Positions 580 through 6,272 of a stretch of DNA of 44,499 bases are shown in pieces; position 1 is the first letter of the stretch, and each line of letters starts with the position of its first letter. The DNA is from Synechocystis salina LEGE 00031. Its GTDB lineage: Bacteria > Cyanobacteriota > Cyanobacteriia > Cyanobacteriales > Microcystaceae. Location of the stretch: NCBI RefSeq assembly GCF_015207985.1, contig NZ_JADEVV010000034.1:1-44499 (forward strand), given 5' to 3'. Below the pieces are notes generated by a model. That model was not told the DNA's origin and did no database searches. It saw only the letters and a list, made by a program, of their open reading frames with translations. The position numbers were made by a program, and so were the translations under genes.

Positions 580-1629
580 CTAGATGTTGGCGATCGCCAT
601 TTTGATCTTTTCCGGTTCCAAAGCCTGGCCAATTACCACTAAGCGGGTTTGCCGGCTATCTACCTCTGTCCAGAGGCGATCGTAGAAATAATCAAACCGT
701 GGCCCCACCCCTTGCAGCACCAGACGCATAGCCTTTTGGGGCACGGCGACAAAACCCTTAATGCGATAAATCTCATGGTTTTCCACTAAATTGGCTAGAC
801 CTTTGACCAACTGCTTGGGATCAAACTCTCGGTCCAGGGCCACATAGACTGCATTAATATCCTCATCGTGGTTGTGGTCTTCCTCGTGGTCATGGTGACT
901 GGGGCGACTATGGAGATTGTCTTCCACCGCTGCATTAAAGCCGAGGAGAACTGCTGGGCTAATTTGCCCTTGGTGACAGGGCACCACTTTCACCCCCGTG
1001 GGTAACTGGTCGCCCAACCAGCTTTCCAGCCGTTGTTGATCCGCATCCGCCAACAAATCGGTTTTGGTTAACAGCACCATATCCGCACAGGCCAACTGGT
1101 CTTCAAATAATTCTTCGATGGGGGTTTCATGGTCGAGGCTATCATCGGCCTGCCGTTGCGCTTCCAACGCATCCAAGTCTCCCACCATGGCTCCCCTAGC
1201 CAGGGCATCCCCATCCACCACGGTAATCACCCCATCTACGGTGGCGCCGGTGCGAATTTCTGGCCAACGAAAAGCTTGAATTAGGGGTTTGGGTAGGGCT
1301 AAACCAGAAGTTTCCACCACAATGCAATCAATTTCCTCCCGCCGCTCCAATAAAGCCTGCATGGTGGGCAAAAATTCCTCCTGCACAGTGCAACAGAGGC
1401 AGCCATTGGCCAATTCGACAATTTTAGGGGCTTCATTAGAGATCTGATTACCGTCTTCGTCACACATTTGGCAACTGCGGAGTATGTCCCCATCAATGCC
1501 CACTTCCCCAAACTCGTTGACCAATACGGCAATGCGTCGTCCTTGGTTATTTTGCAATAGGTTCCTAACCAGGGTGGTTTTGCCAGAGCCGAGGAAGCCA
1601 GTGACTACGGTAACGGGGATTTTGTGCAT
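580..1629 (-). CDS. CobW/COG0523-family GTPase, probable metallochaperone
   Basis: A 349-residue G3E-family P-loop GTPase. The Walker A is GFLGSGKTT near residue 11. The family metal motif GCLCCTV (CxCC) is near residue 75, VETSGLALP serves as switch II, and TKTD replaces the NKxD base-recognition motif. A His/Asp/Glu-rich stretch (HHDHEEDHNHDED) near residues 244-256 precedes a CobW_C domain. Members bind zinc, cobalt or other metals through the CxCC and His-rich loops and pass them to target proteins. The His-rich loop and the lack of cobalamin genes nearby favour a zinc or general metal role over cobalamin synthesis; this is inference. No clear Zur box is visible upstream. The ATG at 1629 is the natural start. 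Confidence 0.88.
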   Translation of the reverse strand: MHKIPVTVVTGFLGSGKTTLVRNLLQNNQGRRIAVLVNEFGEVGIDGDILRSCQMCDEDGNQISNEAPKIVELANGCLCCTVQEEFLPTMQALLERREEIDCIVVETSGLALPKPLIQAFRWPEIRTGATVDGVITVVDGDALARGAMVGDLDALEAQRQADDSLDHETPIEELFEDQLACADMVLLTKTDLLADADQQRLESWLGDQLPTGVKVVPCHQGQISPAVLLGFNAAVEDNLHSRPSHHDHEEDHNHDEDINAVYVALDREFDPKQLVKGLANLVENHEIYRIKGFVAVPQKAMRLVLQGVGPRFDYFYDRLWTEVDSRQTRLVVIGQALEPEKIKMAIANI

Positions 1630-1729: not shown

Positions 1730-2506
1730 ATGATAGATAAAGATTTTTCCCCCACTACGATTGTGCCCATGGCAATGCTCCTTTCCTCTCCCTCCAGCGA
1801 TCCAGTGAAAACGGCGCCAATGGAACCAGTGGTGGCTATGGAGAATCTCAGTCACTTCTACGGCACTGGCAACCTGCGTAAACAGATTTTATTTGATATC
1901 AATCTCCGATTGGAGGAAGGGGAAGTGGTTATTCTCAAAGGGCCTTCCGGTTCGGGAAAAACCACATTGTTGACCCTCATGGGGGGATTGCGGTCAGCCC
2001 AAAGCGGTAGTTTGCGGGTGTTTGGCCAAGAATTAAATGGTGCCAAAAAACACGAGTTAGTCCAGATCCGCCGTCACATTGGTTATATTTTCCAGGCCCA
2101 TAATTTGCTGGAATCCCTCACGGCCAGGCAAAATGTGCAGATGGCCATCGAACTACACTCCCAATACAATGACCATCAGGCTAAGGAATTGTCCATTGCT
2201 ATGCTGGAGGCGGTGGGTCTAGGGGACCACATCAACTATAGTCCCCATAGTCTTTCTGGTGGACAAAAACAACGGGTGGCGATCGCCAGGGCTCTGGTTT
2301 CCCATCCCAAAATGATCTTGGCCGACGAACCAACGGCGGCCTTGGACAGTAAGTCGGGCCATGACGTGGTGGAGTTAATGAGAAAACTAGCCCGGGAGCA
2401 GGGGTCTACTATTTTGATTGTTACCCACGACAACCGCATTTTGGACGTGGCGGATCGGATTATTCAACTCGAAGATGGGCAACTTTGTGCTGATACGGGG
2501 GAGTGA
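1730..2506 (+). CDS. DevA-like ABC transporter ATP-binding protein
   Basis: A 258-residue ABC ATPase of the LolD/MacB/DevA group. Visible are Walker A GPSGSGKTT (about residue 75), Q-loop FQAHNLLESL, signature LSGGQKQRVAIARAL and Walker B ILADEPTAALD. The N-terminal phrase ENLSHFYGTGNLRKQILFDI is characteristic of cyanobacterial DevA, which powers DevBC glycolipid or lipid export. About 35 residues precede the domain. The ATG at 1730 has AAGGAA a few bases upstream; a later ATG at 1820 is a possible alternative. No DevB or DevC gene is adjacent, so it must pair with membrane partners encoded elsewhere. It is divergent from the CobW gene. Confidence 0.87.
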   Translation: MIDKDFSPTTIVPMAMLLSSPSSDPVKTAPMEPVVAMENLSHFYGTGNLRKQILFDINLRLEEGEVVILKGPSGSGKTTLLTLMGGLRSAQSGSLRVFGQELNGAKKHELVQIRRHIGYIFQAHNLLESLTARQNVQMAIELHSQYNDHQAKELSIAMLEAVGLGDHINYSPHSLSGGQKQRVAIARALVSHPKMILADEPTAALDSKSGHDVVELMRKLAREQGSTILIVTHDNRILDVADRIIQLEDGQLCADTGE

Positions 2507-2849
2507 AGATTAATTAACCAACCCTAAAAACTCAGCTAGAAGCTCAATATAATGAACACAGCTAAATACTCAAATCAAATCATAGAGATACAGTAAATTC
2601 CGAATTGGCGTGACACACATAAAGCAGCAGTAACGCTCATTCTATAAAGAGTTTGCTGTGCCACTCAGACACCCCAACCGCTGTATTTAGGATTGGTAAA
2701 TGCCTATTTACCAGGTTTTAATTTTGCTTTAATTTTCCTCAAAACTTTAGGCACAGAGACGTTACCAGGCAAAACCTGGGGAGGCAAAACAAGATAATTA
2801 AACTGAACTCACCAATGAACCCCTCGCCTTGGAACTTAGCAGTGATTGC
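2507..2849. other. AT-rich intergenic region upstream of kaiA3
   Basis: 343 bases with no convincing gene. It holds two perfect inverted repeats: GGTAAAT-4-ATTTACC at 2695-2712, and CCAGG-5-CCTGG at 2765-2779. The second is followed by another copy of GGCAAAAC. Neither is followed by a T-run, so a simple terminator is unlikely. They may lie in the leader or control region of kaiA3. No tRNA or known riboswitch is recognised. Confidence 0.5.
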
Positions 2850-3749
2850 ATGACCCAGGATCCCTACCAAATTCTACTGATTGAAGACGATTCGGCCACG
2901 GCGACAATGGTTGAGAATTATCTGGGTTCGTCGACTATGTCCCCTTTGGCGGCCCGTCTGCCAGTGCAAACCACAGCGGTGTCGAATTTGGCTGAGGCGG
3001 TGGAAGTTTGCCAAGACCGGGAATTTGCCATTGTTTTATTAGATCTATTTTTATCGGAAATTCAAGGAATTGATACTCTAATTAAAGCCCGTACAATTTT
3101 TCCCGACCAATCCATCATTGCCTATAGCCAAAGTGAAGATGAGCATTTAGTTATTCAAGCTTTTCAGCACGGGGCCGATGGCTATTTACGACTAAAAAAC
3201 CTAGACAGCTATTTGCTTTATTATGAATTGCTATCGGTTTTAGAAAGAAATATTTATCGTCGCAAGAGTGAAAATCAACGGAACTTAGCCAGCCAACAGA
3301 AGGAATACCACGACCTGGAAACCCTAATTAGCTCCACCACCAGCGTCACCGCCCGGATGTTTGGCTCCGATACCATCAAAGACTCCTTTCCAGAATTGTT
3401 TGAAGAGTTGAAACAATCCTATGGAGAGTTGTTAGAGTTAGCGTTGGATCAACGGGCCTTTAGGATAGACCACAATCTATCTGGTCGCTTGAGAAATTTA
3501 GCTGATCGCCTAGGTTTTATGAAAGCCAGCCCCAGGGATATTATCGAAATCCACACCACGACCCTCAAGGAAAAAAATCACAATATTAATGTGGTTAAAT
3601 CCCAAGCCTATGCCGTCGAAGGCAGATTGATAGTATTAGAATTAATGGGGTATTTAGCTGGCTTTTATCGCAAGTACTATGTCAGCTTAAATAATTTGAA
3701 TATTTCCTCCCGCATTTCACCACGACTACCTTCCAAAGATAGTTCTTGA
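2850..3749 (+). CDS. kaiA3: KaiA3: receiver-like domain fused to a KaiA-type C-terminal domain
   Basis: A 299-residue protein from the ATG at 2850; an in-frame TTG at 2829 would add seven residues. Residues 6-130 form a response-regulator-like receiver: acidic pocket E12-D13-D14, candidate phospho-acceptor D65 in LLDLFLSE, and GADGYL near 108. The usual Lys/Thr positions are less canonical. After a linker, residues 165-290 resemble the KaiA C-terminal dimerisation and KaiC-binding domain (ASPRDIIEIHT, GRLIVLELMGYL, FYRKYYVS). Canonical KaiA has a pseudo-receiver lacking a phospho-Asp, so this is a distinct chimera. kaiB3 follows downstream. From memory, this orthologue in Synechocystis has been reported as KaiA3, which stimulates KaiC3 phosphorylation. 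No output domain of NarL or OmpR type is seen. Confidence 0.82.
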   Translation: MTQDPYQILLIEDDSATATMVENYLGSSTMSPLAARLPVQTTAVSNLAEAVEVCQDREFAIVLLDLFLSEIQGIDTLIKARTIFPDQSIIAYSQSEDEHLVIQAFQHGADGYLRLKNLDSYLLYYELLSVLERNIYRRKSENQRNLASQQKEYHDLETLISSTTSVTARMFGSDTIKDSFPELFEELKQSYGELLELALDQRAFRIDHNLSGRLRNLADRLGFMKASPRDIIEIHTTTLKEKNHNINVVKSQAYAVEGRLIVLELMGYLAGFYRKYYVSLNNLNISSRISPRLPSKDSS

Positions 3750-3931
3750 CGTGTTAATGTTTTGTTGAGTAATCTATTCTTTGATCAACTGATCATATCT
3801 TACTTTAACGAGATTACCAATCTGTTAGTTTATTGTTGTTTTTTCTTTAGATTCCTTTTGATTGAGGTTATTTATCCTAAGTTTATTGAGTTAGATTTGA
3901 GCAGTGGCCTTATTTACTATCAACGATAGAT

Positions 3932-4234
3932 ATGAATAGGATTGTCTTAAGACTTTATATTACGGGTAATTCGGTGCGTTCTCAGCAGGCGATCGCCAAT
4001 ATTTACCGCATTTGTCAAGAAGATTTAGGTGATCAGTACAACGTTGAAATCATCGATGTATTGGAGCAACCCCAACGGGCGGAAGAGGAAAAAATTATGG
4101 TCACCCCCACCCTGATCAAACAATTGCCCCCTCCTCTGCAACGGATTATCGGTGATATGTCCAATACGGAAAAAGTTTTGCTGGGGCTAGACATTGTGCC
4201 CGAAGGTTTGCAGGTTCATTTCCCGGAGGATTGA
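3932..4234 (+). CDS. kaiB3: KaiB3 circadian clock protein
   Basis: A 100-residue thioredoxin-like KaiB. The family pattern is complete: LRLYITGNSVRSQQAIANI, EIIDVLEQPQRAEEEKI, then VTPTLIKQLPPPLQRIIGD and EKVLLGLD. KaiB binds the KaiC CI ring after a fold switch and sequesters KaiA, driving dephosphorylation. It lies 182 bases downstream of kaiA3 on the same strand; the AT-rich spacer may hold its own promoter. No kaiC is present in the window. In PCC 6803 the matching KaiC3 is encoded elsewhere on the chromosome (from memory). The length is typical of KaiB and lacks a long acidic tail. Confidence 0.9.
   Translation: MNRIVLRLYITGNSVRSQQAIANIYRICQEDLGDQYNVEIIDVLEQPQRAEEEKIMVTPTLIKQLPPPLQRIIGDMSNTEKVLLGLDIVPEGLQVHFPED
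3988..3997. repeat. HIP1 palindrome (representative copy; family spread over the window)
   Basis: GGCGATCGCC, the extended HIP1 octamer GCGATCGC. Other clear copies lie at 2278-2287 and 4314-4323, and many more within nearly every gene on both strands. The high frequency is a genome-wide trait of Synechocystis and related cyanobacteria; it is not a mobile element. Confidence 0.9.
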
Positions 4235-4356
4235 CAGCTATCCCCTAGGCGGTGGGACGATATTAGGTGATGATTAAAAACTAGGGCGAGAATTTTGCCT
4301 CTTACATTTCTCTGGCGATCGCCAAAGCTCAAGTTTTTTCCCTGATCTACCCCTCC

Positions 4357-5565
4357 ATGTTGCCCAATTCCCATCAACGCCAAGCTGTTCAGGCTCTCTA
4401 CAATACCTATCCTTTTCCCCCGGAACCCCTGTTACAGGAACCACCCCCGGGTTATAACTGGCGCTGGCAATGGACTGCGGTGCACAATTTCTGTTTGGGG
4501 CGACGGCCATCTAACCAAAAAATTCGTATTCTCGATGCCGGCTGTGGTACTGGGGTGGGAACGGAATATTTAGTTCACCTTAACCCCGAAGCGACAATCC
4601 ACGCCATTGACATTAGCGAAGGGGCGTTGCAGGTTGCCCAGGAAAGATTACAAAAATCCGGCGTGTGGTGTGACCGAGTGAGTTTTCAGCAGTTACCCCT
4701 CGAAAATGCCGCCAGCATACCAGGACAATTTGACTACATTAACTCCGTGGGGGTGTTGCACCATCTCCCCGACCCCATTGCAGGCATCCAAGCTCTAGCG
4801 GAAAAATTAGCCCCCGGTGGTTTATTCCACATTTTTGTTTACGCTGAAATCGGCCGTTGGGAAATCCAGCTCATGCAAAGGGCGATCGCCATTTTACAGG
4901 GGGAAAAACGGGGTGATTACCAGGATGGAGTAGCGGTAGGTCGACAAATTTTTGCTAGTTTGCCGGAATATAACCGTTTAGTGAAAAGGGAAAAAGAGCG
5001 TTGGTCCCTGGAAAATCACCGGGACGAATCCTTTGCAGATATGTATGTCCATCCCCAGGAAACAGACTACAACATCAATACATTATTTGAATTAATCGAC
5101 TCGGCCGGACTAGAATTTTTAGGCTTTTCCAACCCCGACTATTGGCAACTCGATCGCCTGTTGGGTAAAGCGCCGGACTTGATGGAACGGGCCAAAAATT
5201 TGGGCGAAAAGGAACGGTATCGTCTGATCGAATTGTTAGATCCAGAAATTACCCACTACGAATTTTTCTTGGCTAAACCCCCTGTACAAATTAGTGATTG
5301 GGCTGACGATGGGGAACTTTTACAAGCCAAACCAGGGCTTCATCCCTGTGTTACCGGTTGGCCCAGCCGCAGTTTATTTGACTACAACTATCAACCGTTG
5401 GAATTAACAGAGGCTGAATTTAAGTTTCTTCAAGAGGTGGAAAATTGCACTGACAGTCAAGCCAATGTGGCAACAATCCTGGCTAACCTAGGCGATCAAT
5501 CCATCAATTTGGCATTGGTGCGGAGCCTACAAACTAGGCAAATACTGACCCTCAGCAAATCCTAG
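4357..5565 (+). CDS. Class I SAM-dependent methyltransferase with C-terminal extension
   Basis: A 402-residue protein. Residues 45-170 form a Rossmann-type methyltransferase: motif I ILDAGCGTGVGTEYL near 58, acidic strand-2 end IHAIDIS, and INSVGVLHHLPDP with LAPGGLF as later motifs. An unusual N-terminal stretch (VQALYNTYPFPPEPLLQEPPPGYNW) resembles the start of a family of bacterial 'YPFP' methyltransferases. The C-terminal third (about 270-402) has no motif I recognise and may bind the substrate. The substrate is unknown. It starts 122 bases after kaiB3 on the same strand, so it may be read with the clock genes, but no functional link is visible. Confidence 0.8.
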   Translation: MLPNSHQRQAVQALYNTYPFPPEPLLQEPPPGYNWRWQWTAVHNFCLGRRPSNQKIRILDAGCGTGVGTEYLVHLNPEATIHAIDISEGALQVAQERLQKSGVWCDRVSFQQLPLENAASIPGQFDYINSVGVLHHLPDPIAGIQALAEKLAPGGLFHIFVYAEIGRWEIQLMQRAIAILQGEKRGDYQDGVAVGRQIFASLPEYNRLVKREKERWSLENHRDESFADMYVHPQETDYNINTLFELIDSAGLEFLGFSNPDYWQLDRLLGKAPDLMERAKNLGEKERYRLIELLDPEITHYEFFLAKPPVQISDWADDGELLQAKPGLHPCVTGWPSRSLFDYNYQPLELTEAEFKFLQEVENCTDSQANVATILANLGDQSINLALVRSLQTRQILTLSKS

Positions 5566-5660
5566 GATCTGTTTTAATGATTACCGATACTCTGAAATTC
5601 GCAGACGGGGGCTAGGGACTAAAATTGAAAAGTCCCCCTGGTTGCACAGAGGAAATTGCT

Positions 5661-6272
5661 ATGGTTCAGTCAGTTGATCATCGCAAGTCACTGGCTTTGA
5701 ATATTCCTGAAGAACTAGCCTTGCAGGTTACGCCAGCACAATTTGCTGTTTTAGCGGCGGAAAATCGTGATTTAAGACTTGAACGCACAGCAACAGGGGT
5801 ATTAATTGTGAATCCTCCCACTGGTGGCGAAACAGGTAATCGTAACGCCAAAATCATTACTCAACTTGGGGTATGGGGTGAAGCTAACGACACTTTAGGC
5901 ATAGCGTTTGACTCCTCCACGGGATTTGAATTGCCCAATGGCGCTAACCGATCGCCGGATGCGTCTTGGCTAGCAAGGGAACGCTGGCAAACACTTACTC
6001 CCAAACAAAGACAGGGATTTATCCCCCTGTGTCCTGATTTTGTGGTGGAATTACGGTCTCCAACCGATTCGCTGAAAAAACTGCAGGAAAAAATGCAGGA
6101 GTATATGGAAAACGGGGCTAAGTTAGGTTGGTTGATTGACCCCAAAAATCAGCGGGTGGAAATTTATCGTTCTGGTCAAGCGGTGGAAGTTCTGGAAAAT
6201 CCCAGCACCCTATCAGGGGAAACTGTTTTGCCAGGATTTACCCTATCTCTGCAAAGAATTTTCCCTAGTTAA
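5661..6272 (+). CDS. Uma2/DUF820 family protein (PD-(D/E)XK nuclease-like fold)
   Basis: A 203-residue member of the Uma2 (DUF820) family, greatly expanded in cyanobacteria. Typical elements are GFELPNGANRSPDASWLA, a core D/E strand FVVELRSPTDSL, then LQEKMQEYMENGAKLGWLIDP and VEIYR. The acidic residues of SPDA and VEL plus the downstream charged helix recall a restriction-endonuclease-like active site, but no activity is established for the family. The ATG at 5661 is preferred over an in-frame TTG at 5625 because AGAGGAA lies just upstream and N-terminal alignment begins there. It converges on hisB with only 17 bases between stops. Confidence 0.85.
   Translation: MVQSVDHRKSLALNIPEELALQVTPAQFAVLAAENRDLRLERTATGVLIVNPPTGGETGNRNAKIITQLGVWGEANDTLGIAFDSSTGFELPNGANRSPDASWLARERWQTLTPKQRQGFIPLCPDFVVELRSPTDSLKKLQEKMQEYMENGAKLGWLIDPKNQRVEIYRSGQAVEVLENPSTLSGETVLPGFTLSLQRIFPS

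Follow-up and report, generated by a model that had tools for sequence, protein, structure and literature searches.

Introduction

The closest described system is the second oscillator of Synechocystis sp. PCC 6803, whose KaiA3 protein (Sll0485) consists of a NarL-type receiver with an aspartate at position 65 (D65) and a KaiA-like four-helix domain at the C-terminus, the kaiB3 gene being located downstream of kaiA3 and kaiC3 at another site of the genome (PMC11372060). An in vitro rhythm of KaiA3 with KaiB3 and KaiC3 has been reported, in which the PCC 6803 KaiA3 raises KaiC3 phosphorylation and KaiB3 opposes it (PMC11372060). The same paper lists KaiA3 in 15 cyanobacterial species and five other genera, describes D65 as conserved save in Pleurocapsa and Microcystis, and proposes a cognate kinase for KaiA3 without naming one; its main text does not contain the word "lysine". 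A 2026 review likewise proposes a cognate kinase, and calls the N-terminal domain of KaiA3 a genuine receiver, not a pseudo-receiver (PMC13421787). By definition, a receiver missing any of the five active-site residues is a pseudo-receiver; pseudo-receivers that keep the aspartate may act as less efficient response regulators, lysine substitutions need not abolish phosphorylation, and the pseudo-receivers of canonical KaiA and CikA bind quinones (PMC12632262).

The stretch of DNA analysed here (the window) is the whole of contig C74, positions 1-44499, from a Synechocystis genome of 3.97 Mb in 115 contigs. It carries a gene pair that the original prediction had assigned to a second Synechocystis oscillator, and PMC11372060 bears this out: the two genes encode KaiA3 and KaiB3, already known from the KaiA3B3C3 oscillator of Synechocystis. 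As in PCC 6803, KaiA3 has 299 residues, receiver and KaiA-like domains and D65, with kaiB3 as the next gene and kaiC3 elsewhere; no difference was found in length, D65 or gene order as given in that paper, and the locus is very probably the kaiA3-kaiB3 locus of PCC 6803 or of a close relative. With the pair published, what can now be put more sharply is the question of whether a kinase talks to the KaiA3 clock, and which.

Results

The kaiA3-kaiB3 locus

Coordinates and description of both genes had been given correctly in the original prediction, as judged by open reading frames and Pfam (Table 1), and the proposed chimera of a receiver fold and a KaiA fold with kaiB3 downstream was borne out by Pfam and fold matches. 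The mechanical ORF list begins kaiA3 7 codons upstream, at a TTG. The kaiB3 product is a full KaiB domain (PF07689; 111.4 bits against a cut-off of 27, profile positions 1-82 of 82) and is among the five KaiB-domain matches found in its own genome. The flanking genes are ordinary, judged by Pfam. Promoter and terminator scans at positions 2500-4400 gave no more than shuffled sequences.

Table 1. Features of the kaiA3-kaiB3 region, in window positions.
Feature	Position	Strand	Basis or remark
CobW-type GTPase, neighbour of the pair	580-1629	-	Pfam
ABC transporter ATPase, neighbour of the pair	1730-2506	+	Pfam
kaiA3, receiver-like N-terminal and KaiA-like C-terminal domains	2850-3749	+	299 aa from ATG
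Receiver-like domain, residues 8-113	2871-3188	+	Pfam Response_reg, E 1.6e-11, above cut-off
D65 codon, presumed phospho-acceptor	3042-3044	+	Translation, alignment
Leu115 codon (CTA), conserved-lysine position; next codon AAA = Lys116	3192-3194	+	Sequence, ungapped alignment with GYLxK relatives
KaiA-like C-terminal domain (modelled span, residues 150-299)	3297-3746	+	Foldseek, profile matches
kaiB3, 100 aa	3932-4234	+	Pfam KaiB E 1.7e-32, above cut-off
Methyltransferase, neighbour of the pair	4357-5565	+	Pfam
Uma2-type nuclease, neighbour of the pair	5625-6272	+	Pfam

KaiC3 and the other Kai proteins of the genome

That no local kaiC exists and that the module is split from KaiC3 proved right: no kaiC is present in the window, none of the 11 KaiC-family (PF06745) matches of the genome lies on contig C74, and the KaiC3 gene is on contig C27. 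Three two-domain KaiC proteins are encoded on contigs C14, C26 and C27. The C27 protein (505 aa) shows 89% identity to single proteins of genomes G014 and G141, against 54-56% identity to KaiC1-type proteins from seven genomes (its own genome among them), and is identified as KaiC3 from these comparisons. Canonical KaiA is encoded by a separate gene on contig C14. A second KaiB-domain gene (121 aa, L169:1468-1833, minus strand) is found on contig C26, after kaiB2 and beside kaiC2.

Genome G141 (4.8 Mb) retains both kaiA3 and KaiC3. The reduced genomes G145, G181 and G266 (2.8-3.1 Mb), which share its genus code, gave a KaiC1-type match (55%) only, with no KaiC3 at the threshold used; kaiA3 had no match at E 1e-15 in G145 and is disrupted by in-frame stops in G181 (L035) and G266 (L034). 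Canonical kaiA is free of stops in G145 and G181, the two reduced genomes searched for it. In the reduced genomes of this genus the second clock was lost first, and the co-loss supports a link between KaiA3 and KaiC3 despite their separated genes. G131, from another genus of the same family, has neither kaiA3 nor KaiC3.

Relatives of KaiA3

When one genome was scanned for each species, with two motif patterns that favour well-conserved members, 94 relatives were confirmed and 80 of these kept. The kept loci belong to Cyanobacteriota (38), Chloroflexota (15), Pseudomonadota (13), Planctomycetota (4) and Thermodesulfobacteriota (2), with one each from Armatimonadota, Zixiibacteriota, Verrucomicrobiota, Nitrospirota and Calditrichota and three without a phylum. 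A kaiB gene was present within 1.5 kb downstream in 75/80 loci and a kaiC gene within 2.5 kb downstream in 62/80, some contigs ending too soon for the latter. The separation from kaiC3 is not unique to Synechocystis, since 11 of the 38 cyanobacterial loci, seven of them from Microcystis, are without a linked kaiC.

Other architectures were also observed. A KaiA3-type C-terminal domain is fused to PAS, with no receiver, in L100:7551-8498, L104:7557-8528, L109:7557-8498, L118:7440-8426 and L119:940-1830, which come from Thermodesulfobacteriota, Planctomycetota, Chloroflexota and MAGs labelled Proteobacteria; these genes stand directly ahead of kaiB and, save in L118 (contig end), of kaiC3 too. 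PAS domains lie between a receiver and the KaiA3-type domain in L101:6504-8471 and L107:814-2430, a receiver fusion with no Pfam PAS match occurs in L098:7065-8477, and L096:5411-7039 has PAS and no Pfam receiver match. In family f38, composed of small genomes of the same phylum, the domain is located behind PAS repeats (L036:1453-3204, minus strand; L039:1-1974; L040:1-1980), Pfam-checked in L036. The KaiA3-type domain of f38 may serve something besides a KaiB clock, because genomes G240, G321, G325 and G077 gave no KaiB family match.

The C-terminal domain

Taken alone, the sequence evidence for a KaiA C-terminus is thin. Residues 181-275 matched Pfam KaiA (PF07688) with E 0.0099 and 16.5 bits, below the 22.2-bit cut-off, and just 8 of 52 relatives matched this family at E 0.01. 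Searched against PDB sequences, a profile of the 52 C-terminal domains ranked KaiA in the first three places, with borderline E values (0.05-0.16). Alignment to KaiA C-terminal domains, originally suggested as a check, gave a divided answer: the hhalign comparison with 22 canonical domains ran collinearly through 90 columns with E 0.0013 and a probability of only 18%, and the Pfam score stayed under the cut-off. When the AlphaFold2 model of residues 150-299, made from 52 relatives (pLDDT 89.4), was compared with the PDB by Foldseek, the five top-ranked structures were all KaiA C-terminal domains (E 0.04-0.08, probability 0.99-1.00, TM-score to target 0.55-0.70), with no match at E 0.001.

From the subthreshold Pfam score, the few relatives matched, the profile E of 0.05, the low hhalign probability and the lack of a stronger Foldseek match, it could be argued that this domain is not KaiA and that KaiA3 is an ordinary response regulator. 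Such a reading is extremely improbable, since the best five fold matches and the best three profile matches are all KaiA, kaiB and kaiC follow at the frequencies given above, and the published stimulation of KaiC3 phosphorylation (PMC11372060) contradicts it. A non-KaiA identity was rejected on the top fold and profile matches. The KaiA C-terminus is considered settled because fold match, gene order and the published KaiC3 assay concur; the KaiA fold on which the original prediction depended is the one recovered in the five best structural matches.

The receiver pocket

The full-length model of KaiA3 (pLDDT 91.8) had receiver folds among its PDB matches and placed strand beta5 at residues 111-114. 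According to the alignment, four of the five receiver active-site residues are kept (E12, D13, D65 and S93), and the position of the conserved lysine at the end of beta5 is occupied by Leu115. Residues 111-115 read GYLxK or DYLxK in most relatives, while the window protein reads GYLRLK, as do L014 (97% identical) and L041, and L017 reads GYLRLQ. Residue 115 is taken as the place of the lysine because the alignment has no gaps in either flank and lysine stands at both 115 and 116 in five rows (L021, L028, L062, L064 and L065). A HMMER pairwise alignment to NarL gaps the query and puts the adjacent Lys116 at the lysine position, and this one-residue shift, the sole route to a lysine there, counts against the assignment; an alignment slip is nevertheless thought unlikely, as the GYLxK relatives align gap-free at the flanks. 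A sequencing error was rejected, the residue being identical in the independent L014 genome. By the five-residue definition (PMC12632262), the window domain is classified from its sequence as a pseudo-receiver with a retained aspartate.

Pocket residues were counted in 70/80 loci taken as receiver-bearing. The 10 left out were L096 (no Pfam receiver match), L098, L101 and L107 as receiver-PAS types, and L100, L104, L109, L114, L118 and L119 as PAS or undetermined; residue 115 of L106 was set to K by hand from its alignment, and L117 is a fragment without residues 12-13. Among Cyanobacteria (n=38), D65 was present in 24, K115 in 16, both in 13 and all five residues in 11. Among the non-cyanobacterial loci (n=32), these numbers were 29, 26, 26 and 22, respectively.

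Degenerate pockets were also observed in the Thiodictyon/Lamprocystis group of purple sulfur bacteria (L095, L099, L115, L116 and L117), with A, R or C at residue 115 and T, N, D or E at residue 65; no kinase was found within 1.5 kb upstream of kaiA3 in this group (L117 being short of flank). These sequences point to a separate decay. In a Prochloraceae MAG (L064), KaiA3 has a glutamate at residue 65 and retains Lys115, and this Glu65 could mimic a permanently phosphorylated receiver.

Loss of the lysine and decay of D65 in one clade

A tree of 78 rows was built from C-terminal-domain columns only, receiver columns being excluded. Seven matches beyond the named loci were added (L014, L017, L018, L021 and L028-L030) and others, some of them duplicate contigs, were left out; the omitted row L016 is also without D65 (Asn). 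K115 is missing in all 25 rows on one side of a branch with support 100/95, a clade that includes Hydrococcus, Microcystis, Chlorogloea, Aphanothece, Cyanothece/Crocosphaera and Synechocystis. Of the other 53 rows, 46 have K at residue 115, four have R, two have A and one has C. D65 is retained in 14/25 rows of the K115-less clade versus 47/53 of the others. At least 9 changes of D65 are required on the tree, 4 in 24 clade rows, 1 in Hydrococcus and 4 in the other 53 rows, and the 24 clade rows represent 2.67 of 29.1 branch-length units, the clade making up about 9% of tree length. The excess of changes in the clade, which was picked post hoc, gave binomial p values of 0.0006 (5 of 9) and 0.006 (4 of 9). 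These patterns are most simply explained if the lysine was lost once, followed by relaxed selection on D65. A point against this is that a pairwise comparison of K115 with D65 along the tree, which had only 4 pairs, gave no significant association.

The original prediction saw in D65 a plausible phospho-acceptor. The aspartate is present, but the pocket around it is non-canonical, and its role as a working acceptor is doubtful, because Leu115 takes the place of the lysine in a clade where 25/25 rows lack it and D65 was repeatedly lost. On balance it is unlikely that D65 is phosphorylated in Synechocystis by an unlinked kinase, with Lys116 or another residue substituting for the lysine, and tunes the action of KaiA3 on KaiC3. 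In favour of this reading, D65 is retained along with three of the four remaining pocket residues, lysine substitutions need not abolish phosphorylation (PMC12632262), and a cognate kinase has been proposed in both PMC11372060 and PMC13421787. Within the clade, K116 occurs in 11 of the 14 rows with D65 versus 1 of the 11 rows that have lost the aspartate (p 0.001, from few lineages), and because it tracks D65 in this way it may partly stand in for the missing lysine. Against this, L017 and L018, from the same family, keep D65 with neither K115 nor K116, and the Thr/Ser of residue 93 is lost in seven Crocosphaera-type rows (Met) and one further row (Ile).

Histidine-kinase genes beside kaiA3

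Histidine kinases were identified in phmmer searches that used three reference kinases. One was counted when it had at least 200 aa, lay on the same strand and ended no more than 1.5 kb upstream of kaiA3, and the loci considered were those whose upstream sequence extended over at least 1.5 kb. In Cyanobacteria this was the case in 1/33 loci, and the count of 1/33 was unchanged with a profile built from 51 seed kinases, which has lower specificity as it also matches receivers. None of the 19 loci of the K115-less clade with enough flank had an upstream kinase, and the other cyanobacteria had one in 1/14, Calothrix parasitica (L085). In the non-cyanobacterial receiver-type loci an upstream kinase was found in 17/30, from five named phyla, 11 of these 17 lying within 300 bp of the ORF start, and 21/30 loci had a kinase either upstream or after kaiC3. 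Among ORFs of at least 300 aa within 500 bp upstream of these loci, 15/22 were kinases, compared with 5/45 ORFs located more than 2.5 kb upstream (p 4e-6, kinship ignored). One of three receiver-PAS types had an upstream kinase (L101, gap 4 bp); the PAS or undetermined types had none upstream (0/4), and a kinase directly after kaiC3 in L100, L109, L114 and L119.

Eight linked kinases were analysed with Pfam (L076, L078, L083, L085, L088, L092 and L111 upstream, L062 after kaiB3), and all of them contained HisKA and HATPase domains. Their N-terminal parts included PAS (L078, L083, L085 and L111), HAMP (L088) or receiver and PAS (L076), and were not recognised by Pfam in L062 and L092, the latter read from an internal start. 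It is not one inherited kinase, since the sensor parts differ.

Intact pockets (D65 and K115) had an upstream kinase in 17/35 loci versus 1/28 for the others (p 6e-5), mostly a contrast between phyla; among non-cyanobacteria only, the values were 16/25 intact versus 1/5 (p 0.14), and a kinship-corrected test, with 4 pairs on supported branches and 10 on all, gave no significance. A missing linked kinase is by itself no proof of lost signalling, because the other cyanobacteria outside the K115-less clade have both D65 and K115 in 13/17 and yet a kinase upstream in only 1/14. An orphan kinase acting on D65 would be invisible as a neighbour. The Calothrix kinase (L085), used as query, gave 45 matches in the Synechocystis genome, 0 of them on the window contig. 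The best match (38%, kinase domain only) is a phytochrome-type kinase (PAS_2-GAF-PHY-HisKA-HATPase), a match that reflects kinase-domain similarity and nothing more.

Discussion

From the PCC 6803 data, the KaiA-like C-terminal domain of KaiA3 would act on KaiC3, encoded elsewhere, raising its autophosphorylation, and KaiB3 would oppose this action. The N-terminal domain appears to derive from a receiver whose full active site is still present in several other phyla, where a histidine-kinase gene is often found beside kaiA3-kaiB3-kaiC3 and the kinase-linked receiver would be a phosphorylated input. The active-site lysine would have been lost, most simply once, in the clade that contains Synechocystis, the site decaying since then, so that D65 in Synechocystis most likely undergoes weak phosphorylation or none and the domain would serve mainly as a pseudo-receiver with a structural or ligand-type role, like that of canonical KaiA. 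On the basis of the pocket residues and their distribution, it is reasonably likely that the kinase input has been weakened or lost in the Synechocystis clade, with the domain kept as a pseudo-receiver of this kind, and the kinase-to-KaiA3 input in Synechocystis is probably weak or vestigial. The original idea that a two-component kinase could reach the clock through KaiA3 fits better with the non-cyanobacterial relatives, with their fuller pockets and adjacent kinases, than with Synechocystis, where the pocket is incomplete.

By analogy with canonical KaiA, the N-terminal domain might sense a small molecule such as an oxidised quinone, D65 being a leftover. This version, rather improbable as a separate account, agrees with the classification as a pseudo-receiver and with the quinone binding of canonical KaiA and CikA (PMC12632262), but it is one form of the preferred explanation, with which it overlaps, and is not wholly distinct from it.

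A broader scheme, for which the chances seem evenly balanced, is that KaiA3 started out as a response regulator through which a two-component system fed into the clock. An adjacent kinase would phosphorylate the receiver and directly set KaiC3 phosphorylation in Chloroflexota, purple sulfur bacteria, Planctomycetota and others, one cyanobacterial clade would have turned the domain into a pseudo-receiver after losing the lysine, and PAS-fused sensors would drive the same domain in certain other bacteria. If this is true, the Synechocystis clade offers a present-day view of how the canonical KaiA pseudo-receiver could have arisen.

Neither the missing lysine nor kinase genes beside kaiA3 were described in the open literature consulted, and the missing lysine bears on the statement in PMC13421787 that the domain is a genuine receiver. 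Synechocystis KaiA3 would be the obvious protein for a test but, with an incomplete receiver site, makes a poor candidate. Operons of the Roseiflexus type or from purple bacteria are the best place to look for a kinase-KaiA3 input, because pockets are fuller and kinases often adjacent outside Cyanobacteria. Roseiflexus-type and Chromatiaceae operons have a complete receiver and a kinase gene overlapping or within a few hundred bases, so that phosphotransfer to a clock protein is directly testable there.

Comparison with known systems

The window KaiA3 resembles canonical KaiA (PF07688) in its C-terminal fold and its position ahead of kaiB, and differs from it in scoring under the Pfam cut-off and in keeping D65 in the N-terminal domain. 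Its receiver is like the canonical receivers of NarL and CheY in fold, acidic pair, D65 and Ser93, but a leucine replaces their conserved lysine. The Roseiflexus-type proteins (L078, L079, L083, L084 and L103) have the same architecture and are likewise encoded ahead of kaiB, which is followed there by kaiC3. Unlike the window KaiA3, they have all five receiver residues, and a histidine-kinase gene is located directly upstream, the gap to the ORF start ranging from -73 to 46 bp.
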